NCBI GenBank assembly: GCA_903887775.1
Contig: CAISRB010000033.1
Coordinates: 186,001-250,000 of the forward strand
Direction: 5' to 3'
Origin: an uncultured Bacteroidales bacterium
GTDB lineage: Bacteria; Bacteroidota; Bacteroidia; Bacteroidales; FEN-979
DNA: 64,000 bases
In this document: one piece after another, positions 20,121 through 23,270 of the stretch
Layout: each line of letters begins with the position of its first letter
Position numbering within the stretch: position 1 is the stretch's first letter
Notes under the pieces: generated by a model
Told to the model about the DNA's origin: nothing
Databases searched by the model: none
Seen by the model: the letters and a program-made list of their open reading frames with translations, nothing else
Made by a program: the position numbers and the translations under genes

Positions 20121-21332
20121 TTAAACCGGGACCGGTTCTGTAATCATTTTATTTTCGTGATCGGTAAGTATTTCCACTTCCGTCCCGTTTTGCGTGTCGA
20201 TCTCGGTCATCCTGCTTACGCTCAGAATTATCCCGATGGCAATACTGGTGAACCAGATCGAGGTGCCTCCCATACTGATCAGAGGCAGGGTTTGACCGGT
20301 TACCGGGAATAGGTTCACCGCCACAGCCATATTGATCATTGCCTGGAATACCATGCTGAACCCAATCCCCAGGGAGAGCAGGGTCCCGAAATTTCCCTGG
20401 CATTTGCCTGCTATCCGGATCACACGGAAAAACAGGATAAGATAGAGCAGCATCACAAAGCTGCCCCCTATCAGACCGTACTCTTCAATAATAATCGCGA
20501 AAATGAAATCGGAATAGGGATGGGGAAGGAAATTCCTCTGAGTGCTCTTACCCGGTGATTTCCCAAAGATCCCTCCGGAAACAATGGCGATCTTGGCCTG
20601 GTCAACTTGGTAAGTGGCATCCGCACTGGCCTTCTCTTTATTGATAAAATGTTCCACTCTTTTCACCCAGGTTTCGCCCCGGGGGAACAAATGAGGGAAT
20701 ATAATGGCAATGCCAAAGATCATAACTACCGAAACAAAACCCAGGCCAATGAGAGAAAAAATATATTTCAGGCTGATCCGGCCAATGAACATCAGGATCA
20801 TGCAGGTGACAAATAAAATAGCTGCCGTGGAGAAATTCGCAGGCAATATCAGTATCGTGACAGCAATAACCGGAAGCAATACCGGTAAAAAGCCTTTTCT
20901 GAAATCTTCAACAAGTTCCTGTTTTTTGCTTAAAACCCTGGCCAGGTACATGATAAGAAAAAGTTTTGCCATATCGGAACTCTGGAAGGTCAGGTTGACG
21001 ATCGGTACTGTAAGCCAGCGGTTGGCTTCGTTCAGGTTGGTCCCGGAGGCCAGGGTAAATGCGAGTAATGGGAGAGTAAGTATCAGCCCGATCTGTGAAA
21101 TCCTTGAGAAATACGTGTACTTGATAAGATGGGTAAGGTACATCAGCCCAAAACCAAGACCCAGGATGAGCAAATGTTTCATAAGATAATACTCGGTGTT
21201 CCCATGCTGTTTTTTATATGCAAGAGTTCCTGTTGAACTGTAAACAGCCAGCAATGAGAATATCGACAAGATGATCACTACGATCCAAATGACTTTATCT
21301 CCCTTTATGTTTTTAAATGAGCCGACCATCAC
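20121..21332 (-). CDS. ftsW: SEDS peptidoglycan polymerase FtsW
   Basis: The 403-residue membrane protein has about ten transmembrane helices and the SEDS-family signatures, including the stretch ending FFRVIRIAGK and the late motif GQTLPLISMGGTSIWF. FtsW polymerises lipid II into septal glycan strands together with the transpeptidase FtsI, encoded upstream in the same cluster. The N-terminus (VYSSTGTLAYKKQHG) is typical of Bacteroidota FtsW. It starts 6 bp after the stop of the truncated MurD frame. Confidence 0.96.
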   Translation of the reverse strand: MMVGSFKNIKGDKVIWIVVIILSIFSLLAVYSSTGTLAYKKQHGNTEYYLMKHLLILGLGFGLMYLTHLIKYTYFSRISQIGLILTLPLLAFTLASGTNLNEANRWLTVPIVNLTFQSSDMAKLFLIMYLARVLSKKQELVEDFRKGFLPVLLPVIAVTILILPANFSTAAILFVTCMILMFIGRISLKYIFSLIGLGFVSVVMIFGIAIIFPHLFPRGETWVKRVEHFINKEKASADATYQVDQAKIAIVSGGIFGKSPGKSTQRNFLPHPYSDFIFAIIIEEYGLIGGSFVMLLYLILFFRVIRIAGKCQGNFGTLLSLGIGFSMVFQAMINMAVAVNLFPVTGQTLPLISMGGTSIWFTSIAIGIILSVSRMTEIDTQNGTEVEILTDHENKMITEPVPV

Positions 21333-21338
21333 ACTTTT

Positions 21339-21887
21339 TTAAAGATCCTTAACTGCTTTTCTGAAGGCAATGCCCCTTGCTTCATGGTTGACGAAGATCT
21401 CATCTTCCCTGCATCCCGGTGAGAATAAGGCAACATCGCCTTTCGTACCAAGGTAATATGCAGCTTCCACAGCTTCTGCCATCGTATAGGTGTCGGCTAT
21501 GGGTATTTCAAGATCGCTGAAAGTCTCATGAATAGCCGCATTCCCGGAACCAAGACAAATAATGGCCTTCACCTTCTTGACAACAACGGCTTTAAGGAAT
21601 TCCATTTCCTTTCGGGAACTGCCTCCTCCCGCAATCCAGATCACAGATTTCGACATTGTTTCCAGCGCAAACCATGCACCGTTCAGACTTACTGACATTG
21701 AATCGTTAATGAATTCAATGCCATGAATATTTGCCACGAATTCCAGCCTGTGCTCGGTATTACTGAAATCAGAGAACCATTCCCTGAAACAGGCCTTCCT
21801 CGCCTCCCGGATACGGGAAGAAACAGTGGCGGCCAGATTCTCAGAAATATTCGTGTTTCCTTGTAAAGCCAGGGATTCTAAAGTCAT
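21339..21887 (-). CDS. murD: Truncated, motif-degenerate MurD C-terminal domain
   Basis: The 182-residue product aligns only with the C-terminal glutamate-ligase domain of MurD (normally about 450 residues), starting at the conserved G.N...N.AA linker. The N-terminal and ATP-binding domains are missing, and only 129 bp separate it from mraY. Scaffold segments are kept (EHRLEFVANIHGIEFINDS, EAAYYLGTKGDVALFSP). The substrate and nucleotide loops are not: NDSKATN is NDSMSVS (61-67), GGxDKG is GGGSSRK (87-93), and SPxCASFD is SPGCREDE (156-163). It cannot be an active ligase. The frame is nonetheless open, begins with ATG after an in-frame TAA, and keeps the position of murD 6 bp before ftsW. It could be a retained non-catalytic domain or a recent pseudogene; a working MurD must be encoded elsewhere. 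Confidence 0.85.
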   Translation of the reverse strand: MTLESLALQGNTNISENLAATVSSRIREARKACFREWFSDFSNTEHRLEFVANIHGIEFINDSMSVSLNGAWFALETMSKSVIWIAGGGSSRKEMEFLKAVVVKKVKAIICLGSGNAAIHETFSDLEIPIADTYTMAEAVEAAYYLGTKGDVALFSPGCREDEIFVNHEARGIAFRKAVKDL

Positions 21888-21935
21888 AGTGTTTTATTTT
21901 AGTGATATGTTGTTTTAATCGCTTCCGGTCACATC

Positions 21936-21988
21936 TTCACATCGCCGCTACGGTGTCGCTGCGCTCCACCTGAGGCGGCTTATGTGAA
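21936..21988. repeat. 53-nt imperfect palindrome between mraY and the murD remnant
   Basis: TTCACAT (21936-21942) pairs with ATGTGAA (21982-21988). Inside, GCCGC pairs with GCGGC and GGTG with CACC, with small internal loops and an 11-nt apical loop. The GC-rich core stands out from its AT-rich flanks. It sits where the first two thirds of murD should be. It could be a REP-like element, a hairpin affecting read-through within the dcw operon, or the scar of a deletion. Confidence 0.7.
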
Positions 21989-22016
21989 ATGCTCCTTTCA
22001 ATAATTTTACTTATCA

Positions 22017-23270
22017 TTATCTTATTTTCAGAGTAACAATGCTAAGCACCGCAAGCATGATCCCAACGATCATAAACCGCATTACAATTTTCGCTTCATG
22101 GTATCCCAGTTTTTGATAATGATGATGAAGGGGCGACATTTTAAAAATCCTCCTCCCTTCGCCGAATTTTCGTTTCGTATATTTAAAATAACTTACCTGC
22201 ATCACCACCGAAAGGTTTTCTGCGAGAAAGATCCCGCAGAAAATGGGAATCATGATCTCCTTGCGGATGATGATGGCAAAAACGGCTATGATCCCGCCCA
22301 GTGCAAGACTTCCTGTATCTCCCATGAATACCTGTGCGGGGTAGGAATTGTACCATAGAAAACCTATACAGGCCCCGACAAACGCTGCAATATAAATGGC
22401 CAGCTCGCCTGTATCAGGGATATACATGATGTTGAGGTAATCGGCGAAATTCGTATTACCCGACACATAAGCCAGTACTCCCAGTGTTACTCCAATAATG
22501 GCCGACGTTCCGCTCGCGAGCCCATCGAGCCCGTCGGTCAGATTAGCTCCGTTGGAAACCGCGATGATGATAAAAATGACAATAGGAATAAATACCAGCC
22601 ATGTCCACTTCTTTGCTTCCGGACTGATCCAGGAAATGAGCCAGCTGTAGTCGAACTCGTTATGCTTTATAAAAGGGATGGTGGTTTTTGTCGACTTGAT
22701 CTCGGTCTTAGAAAATGGACTGATCCTTTCAGAGGCATTTTCAACTTTGAAAATATCCTGGGACGGAACATAAGCCTGGTTCTTTGTCTTTTCCCTGATC
22801 ACGACACCTTCGCTGAAATACATTGTGAAGCCCACAATGAGTCCAAGCCCCACCTGGCCCATTATCTTCAATTTGCCGGGCAGCCCTTTTTTGTCCTTCT
22901 TGAACACCTTGATATAATCATCAAGGAAGCCGATCAGACCAAGCCAAACGGTTGCAACGAGGATAAGGATAATATAAACGTTGTGAAGTTTTGCGAAAAG
23001 CAGGGTGGGTACAACGATCGCAGCAAGAATGATCAGTCCGCCCATCGTAGGCGTTCCCTGTTTCGAGACCTGCCCCACAAGGCCAAGGTCCCGAATCGTT
23101 TCTCCCACCTGTTTTTTTGTAAGGAACCCGATCAGCCTTTTCCCGATGATCATCGAAATAAACAGGGAAGCGATCAGGGCAATGGCGGCTCTGAAGGAAA
23201 TATACTGGAACACGCCTGCACCCGGGAAATTGAATGCTTCATGCAACCATTTAAATAAATAGTATAACAT
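22017..23270 (-). CDS. mraY: Phospho-MurNAc-pentapeptide transferase
   Basis: The 417-residue polytopic enzyme moves phospho-MurNAc-pentapeptide to undecaprenyl phosphate, forming lipid I. Family motifs present are [44 protein letters not shown] and the late [11 protein letters not shown]. It is about 55 residues longer than the E. coli enzyme because of an insertion around residues 155-215 ([16 protein letters not shown] and following), as is usual in Bacteroidota. It follows murE by 3 bp. Confidence 0.98.

Follow-up and report, generated by a model that had tools for sequence, protein, structure and literature searches.

Within a 64,000-nucleotide stretch of DNA from an uncultured Bacteroidales bacterium (GCA_903887775.1, contig CAISRB010000033.1, positions 186,001 to 250,000; hereafter the window), our analysis revealed a short gene in the place of murD in the division and cell wall (dcw) cluster, between mraY and ftsW, with murG then following. 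Judged from its sequence, the product is a pseudoenzyme derived from MurD (UDP-N-acetylmuramoyl-L-alanine--D-glutamate ligase, TIGR01087), a state that appears to have arisen several times following a pathway replacement of a known kind. The function that we rank as most likely, at a probability of roughly 0.5, would be that of a non-catalytic docking subunit in lipid II precursor assembly; here, we infer role, partner, and expression alike. The gene, its parts, and its neighbours lie as follows:

21339..21887, minus strand: short MurD gene, an uninterrupted open reading frame of 182 amino acids with an ATG start, holding the last part of the central domain plus domain 3
21342..21752, minus strand: MurD domain 3 (Mur_ligase_C, PF02875; residues 46-182), a predicted independent fold
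21753..21887, minus strand: remnant of the central-domain end (residues 1-45), placed by alignment with full-length MurD, with helices of low confidence
21687..21707, minus strand: NDSMSVS (residues 61-67), in place of NDSKATN
21609..21629, minus strand: GGGSSRK (residues 87-93), in place of GGxDKGN, with the Lys of DKG gone
21399..21422, minus strand: SPGCREDE (residues 156-163), in place of SPxCASFD
22017..23270, minus strand: mraY (TIGR00445, 332.1 bits, above cut-off)
21888..22016, minus strand: interval from the mraY stop to the ATG of the short gene, in which a repeat search found no repeat
20121..21332, minus strand: ftsW (best match TIGR02614, 280.4 bits, below the cut-off of 337.5)

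The short protein has lost whole domains as well as active-site residues. Against TIGR01087, it scores 120.1 bits, short of the cut-off of 211.95, and covers profile positions 263-440 of 441; the UDP-binding N-terminal domain and the P-loop central domain are absent from the 182-residue frame. Lacking the UDP-MurNAc-binding parts and the ATP-binding P-loop, the protein is thus not a ligase by itself. The AlphaFold model and its fold matches to MurD identify what is left as domain 3, preceded by residues 1-45, which are modelled with pLDDT block means of 45-67 and, in alignment with full-length MurD, have lost the His of GKHN. Its start Met corresponds to an internal Met that precedes LALQGKHN in most full-length Bacteroidota MurD (95% of 58). 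A first-pass annotation, made from the letters of the window, had described only a C-terminal domain between mraY and ftsW; the position and the truncation hold, although about 44 central-domain residues precede domain 3. Its account of the three replaced loops and of an intact frame proved accurate. Specifically, none of five domain 3 catalytic residues, which we take to be K319, T321, K348, S415, and F422 of E. coli MurD, is kept in the window protein (0/5), while 58/58 full-length controls keep all five.

The short gene is neither an artifact of one assembly nor peculiar to one genome. Among 61 relatives, 37 of them from the same family, the short form was found with an open frame in 35/37 family genomes, a conservation far beyond chance; the other two are a genome that is 69% complete (G029) and one in which no mraY was found (G036). 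It also occurs in G037, G039, and G041 and, highly divergent, in G051. Because independent assemblies carry this short gene at the same place between mraY and ftsW, the collapse of a full-length murD during assembly, raised by the first-pass annotation, is rejected, and repeat-mediated misassembly was rejected with no repeats within 21880-22030. The broken frames expected of a plain pseudogene were likewise sought among relatives, and the frames proved open. Further, short forms gave a dN/dS of 0.027-0.104 in 13 pairs, indicating purifying selection, with values of 0.027-0.071 in the 6 pairs from the genus of the window, where the site is dead, and 0.027 in the least saturated of those pairs (G003/G005, dS 0.45). 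Invariant residues span the whole length of 19 aligned short forms, and 12/12 forms whose loops have degenerated retain D62, I85, V106, and F175, with either Arg or Lys at position 47. In the degenerate-loop forms, catalytic-loop columns keep 17% of the full-length residue, versus 64% for other invariant domain 3 columns, a contrast that is partly built in, since these 12 forms and the loop columns were picked after viewing the alignment. The low dN/dS and the kept residues together indicate that the protein, and not just the DNA, is preserved. Conserved open frames and low dN/dS thus support the retained non-catalytic domain suggested at first pass, with a structural or regulatory job as its conjectured purpose.

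The order in which the enzyme was dismantled can be read from forms at different stages. In a survey of 56 short forms (a set without G035), all five checked residues are kept in 7 and none in 11, the latter including 8/8 genomes of the window's genus; the forms that still keep catalytic residues lie outside that genus, and the short form of G041 is an example with intact motifs. K91 (the Lys of DKG, K348 in E. coli) is kept in 9/56 and S161 in 40/56, and His12 of GKHN is lost in 56/56. That 7/56 short forms hold all five residues indicates that truncation preceded the decay of the site.

The first-pass annotation had also expected an active MurD elsewhere in the cell or another route for the addition of D-Glu, and a full-length MurD-type ligase beside a MurL homologue, with no glutamate racemase found, appears to answer that expectation. 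Specifically, a search of the genome for full-length MurD returned a single match over the cut-off, on a contig other than that of the short gene (C18:62614-63942), and the frame just upstream, which overlaps the MurD start, is a probable MurL homologue (NF041275, E 4.6e-71). According to the accessible text of PMC8788868, Xanthomonas uses an alternative route in which MurD2 adds L-Glu and MurL then epimerises it, and the L-Glu preference of X. oryzae MurD2 is set by two residues, Glu197 and Arg358, of which Arg alone occurs also in some D-Glu MurD. The C18 MurD carries both members of this specificity pair, with Glu and Arg at the sites aligned to E. coli D182 and K348. A MurD2 frame was found in 27 of the 28 genomes given, carrying Arg in all 27, Glu in 26 (Asp in G070), and intact domain 3 motifs of its own in 27/27; among the 27 MurD2 genomes, MurL and MurD2 are neighbouring frames in 24 and fused in 2. 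Single open frames of 885 and 949 residues, in L236 (G115) and L237 (G142), represent such MurL-MurD2 fusions. No glutamate racemase match (TIGR00067, at E 0.001) was found in the window genome. Ligation and epimerisation would, on these grounds, have moved to the MurL-MurD2 pair, both being putative activities.

Across the order, the short form is associated with MurL. MurL is present in 34/37 family members and MurI, over its cut-off, in 0/37, with weak sub-cut-off matches in 6. Among 149 genomes drawn evenly across the order, 54 carry MurL (G088 only a weak fragment at the edge of a contig), 89 carry MurI over cut-off, none carries both, and 6 carry neither; short forms numbered 23, 22 of them in MurL genomes, with G051 as the exception. 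By open-frame length, the dcw MurD is full-length in 88/89 MurI genomes, the remaining one (G053, 70% complete) giving no match. The dcw gene of the 54 MurL genomes is short in 22, full in 26, cut by a contig end in 3 (G088, G131, and G142), and without a readable interval in 3 (G056 and G164, which have no mraY, and G113, where mraY stands beside an unrelated gene). None of the 48 readable loci has lost the domain; both flanks were seen in 45, with one cut by a contig end in G041, G048, and G049, and the short form of G107 is highly divergent (63 bits). A class-wide sample yielded MurL in 2/396 genomes, both from the same order, and occurrence of MurL outside the order was rejected on this sample. 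In a wider contig search, the 80 loci among the matches listed were mostly full-length MurD with at least one clear further short form (L121); among the same matches, L118 and L150 are cut at the start, and near relatives may be left out.

The 26 full-length dcw MurD in MurL genomes were candidates for enzymes already dead before truncation, which was rejected: 26/26 preserve the P-loop and the other motifs, counting a G048 frame that lies close to a contig end and lacks profile positions 1-48, and the 17 MurI controls of this check include G111, with neither MurL nor MurI over cut-off. Truncation therefore appears as a later, optional step. Frames of 865 and 659 amino acids in G071 and G110, taken for MurD-MraY fusions, proved to be merely open frames overlapping mraY.

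Phylogenies of the flanking genes suggest that this step was taken more than once. In a maximum-likelihood tree of MraY and FtsW with 73 rows, there are 11 changes between short and full, of which well-supported branches force at least 5 changes of the short label, although such counts cannot separate gain from loss. A single origin occurred in 0/200 bootstraps, and one clade for 24 short forms was rejected (p-AU 8.5e-5), so that a single ancient truncation is rejected on this tree, where the bootstrap had not settled. Strongly supported neighbours of opposite state are G070/G183, G085/G087, G175/G062, and G094+G159 with G154. The tree omits 27/34 own-family rows, eleven individual rows (G036, G088, G131, G142, G041, G048, G044, G057, G136, G121x (L121), and G051), and all rows less than 60% filled. 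In the lineages inspected, the residual proteins start at points no more than tens of residues apart; MurD has thus, as its sequences tell it, been pared repeatedly, in several lineages, to the same domain. Regain of full-length MurD from MurI lineages was not supported, since in a tree of the domain, which omits 23 own-family rows, is otherwise poorly resolved, and may misplace long rows, a branch (support 93) sets apart the 30 rows labelled I_full, and the 26 labelled Lfull lie outside it. A quick tree of 101 rows (without G036) groups every MurL row to the same side of one branch (support 96). The locus L247 (G122) has MurI and full MurD, yet falls among the MurL rows in the MraY and FtsW tree, and G122 has possibly returned to the classical route. 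Because G122 takes that place once more MurI rows are added, we do not claim a single gain of MurL.

We propose that the dcw murD would have been freed from catalysis once MurL-MurD2 took over the reaction, and would then have been trimmed, independently in several lineages, to domain 3 and the preceding helices; the catalytic residues would have decayed after truncation, while the fold stayed under selection. The short protein may now act as a docking or assembly subunit for the cytoplasmic lipid II machinery (MraY, MurG, FtsW, and other Mur ligases), work that would likewise fall to full-length MurD. We judge this docking role most likely given that the gene is fixed between mraY and ftsW, with murG following. 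In Thermotoga, MurD, MurE, and MurF bind MurG and MreB, as stated in the accessible portion of PMC6420597. A broader proposition, for which the odds seem to us slightly worse than even, is that MurD houses a separable second function in its C-terminal domain, one that is not easily lost and that became exposed where MurD2/MurL took over. In most bacteria, the essential nature of the catalytic enzyme would mask such a function.

Several observations weigh against this account. First, MurL does not dictate the outcome: 26 MurL genomes retain a dcw MurD of full length whose motifs are intact, and the MurL route therefore does not force truncation. Conversely, G051 (L058, 98% complete) has a divergent short form with neither MurL nor MurI over cut-off, and no full-length MurD over cut-off was found in that genome. 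In G113 (MurL present, 91% complete), the dcw cluster is broken, mraY stands alone, and the genome yielded no MurD domain of the dcw type; the single domain match genome-wide has the strength of a MurD2 (L227), and this lineage may have lost the domain altogether. Second, the dN/dS of the short form, although of the order seen in its flanking genes, is mostly somewhat higher. In the 12 of the same pairs with finite values for the flanks (mraY 0.031-0.093, ftsW 0.023-0.069), the omega of the short form lies above that of mraY in 11/12 and above that of ftsW in 12/12, a comparison in which most dS are near saturation and the mraY and ftsW frames are untrimmed to start codons. The kept residues include positions of the fold core, and a tree of the domain only, being too short, does not settle the origins. 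Third, the replacement route has gaps. The MurL match reaches 239.6 bits against an NF041275 cut-off of 700, in a model named for Xanthomonadales whose cut-off is passed by 0 of the 61 relatives and 0 of the 149 order genomes. MurL and MurD2 are on separate contigs in G037 and about 7 kb apart in G033, and in the family genomes G005 and G014 neither MurL nor full-length MurD was found. An assembly gap might explain the latter absences, because the MurL and MurD genes are mostly adjacent. Finally, no D-amino-acid transaminase over the cut-off was found in 58 genomes, an absence that is weak because the model passes its cut-off in only 1/14 controls; the window genome's only TIGR01121 match is a 347-aa frame (E 4.8e-8), far below the cut-off.

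Set against the docking role, the second-ranked alternative, unlikely but the strongest of its competitors, is that the short protein acts in trans on MurD2 or on MurC, MurE, or MurF, as partner or regulator, and would swing onto the nucleotide-bound central domain of that ligase. Such a partner could plausibly use the kept Arg/Lys47 and Asp62, the latter presumably D317 of E. coli, which contacts nucleotide, much as domain 3 does in cis. Both features occur in 12/12 degenerate-loop forms, and Arg47 is E. coli Arg302 by the HRxE motif. According to the accessible text of PMC4816537, Arg302 is a handle for the rotation of domain 3 and contacts the ADP alpha-phosphate. However, these residues may serve the fold alone, MurD2 has domain 3 motifs of its own (27/27), and the His12 of GKHN is lost in every short form surveyed.

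An improbable third reading takes the short protein for a ligand sensor. The C-terminal domain of a Mur ligase binds the amino acid, on the evidence of that same accessible text (PMC4816537), and some short forms would still be equipped for this, with all five residues in 7/56 and S161 in 40/56. Yet K91 is kept in only 9/56, and 0/5 residues remain in 11/56, among them every one of the 8 genomes from the window's genus, where selection is nevertheless strong. More improbable still is that the DNA is kept and not the protein, as a spacer or translational coupling element protecting the expression of ftsW. Because the gene directly precedes ftsW in an operon-like row, deletions reaching its 3' end could harm ftsW, and G113, with no ftsW after its mraY, is also where no such domain was found; selection, however, acts at the level of amino acids (dN/dS 0.027-0.104), and invariant residues run the whole length of 19 short forms. 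A pseudogene on its way out, with a frame not yet broken, would accommodate the stepwise loss of catalytic residues and the very divergent forms (G107, 63 bits; G051), and G113 may be such a loss completed. We consider it very improbable, given open frames in 35/37 family genomes, no loss of the domain in 48 readable MurL-genome loci, and strong purifying selection after the death of the site. Least credible of all is that the short gene still contributes to ligation, its product working in trans with a separately encoded N-terminal and central part. The 7/56 forms with all five residues might speak for this, but no separate MurD fragment of that kind was seen in the window genome, where the remaining matches look like full-length MurD2, MurC, Mpl-like, MurE, and MurF-like frames, and the window's genus keeps 0/5 residues.

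The short protein thus resembles known systems in part. It shares with MurD the domain 3 sequence, the fold, and the operon position, and differs from that ligase in having neither N-terminal domain nor P-loop, a dead amino-acid site, and a score below the family cut-off. Likewise, the adjacent probable MurL and the MurD homologue on C18, with the Glu and Arg residues and no MurI found, parallel MurD2/MurL of X. oryzae as presented in the available text (PMC8788868), whereas the window genome retains a relic of the old MurD in its dcw cluster and belongs to a Bacteroidales-like order. That text lists Gamma- and Alphaproteobacteria and actinobacteria as MurD2/MurL taxa (PMC8788868), and another extends the list with orthologues of low similarity from a fungus, cyanobacteria, and an amoeba (PMC5808125); no word starting with "bacteroid" occurs in the accessible portion of the latter. 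A fold search with the short MurD returned among its matches MurT and the plastid polymerase chains 8qma_O and 8r6s_Q, which we take to be PAP11. Unlike the short protein, MurT of the MurT/GatD amidotransferase retains an ATP-binding middle domain and carries out catalysis together with GatD (PMC6113224, accessible part). PAP11, a plant MurE homologue, is a component of the plastid RNA polymerase that makes contacts partly via its C-terminal domain (PMC12681378, accessible part); it is alike in being a Mur ligase homologue that serves as a complex subunit, and unlike in belonging to another Mur family and to a eukaryotic organelle. A literature search, which covered few subscription papers, returned nothing on truncated or stand-alone MurD, nor on MurL in Bacteroidota.

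These lineages amount to a natural experiment, run several times over, in which catalysis has been split from whatever else MurD may do. Further, the idea that Mur ligases are parts of an organised precursor-assembly complex becomes directly testable with a small domain. Our results also suggest that the MurD2/MurL route is common in one order of Bacteroidia; with a MurL homologue in 54/149 order genomes, D-Glu metabolism there needs to be re-examined, and annotation should avoid calling short genes between mraY and ftsW functional MurD. In 26 MurL genomes, an intact dcw MurD of the D-Glu type stands beside MurD2/MurL with no MurI over cut-off (for example, L189, L206, and L208). Class IV transaminase matches in frames of about 278-320 amino acids occur in 12/26 full versus 3/22 short genomes (Fisher p 0.027), a contrast of frame length that is post hoc, with a G062 frame of 370 amino acids containing an internal stop and a G039 frame of 451. 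That a D-amino-acid transaminase supplies D-Glu to genomes with a persisting full MurD is a lead only.

Two minor observations concern neighbouring genes. The dcw cluster, described at first pass as otherwise complete, is not exactly so, since murF lies outside it. MurF-like frames occur elsewhere in the genome, their names being a reading of the sequences and not the result of a family search; two such frames (L006 and L007) were noted outside dcw, and one of them, of 890 amino acids, looks fused to an alanine racemase. Lastly, the frame directly after murD2 on contig C18 contains a 7-base tandem repeat, GCTCATG, in 16.6 copies with 96% matches (L039:9992-10107), encoding MAHGSWL repeats, a stretch that is possibly phase-variable or a wrongly extended start.
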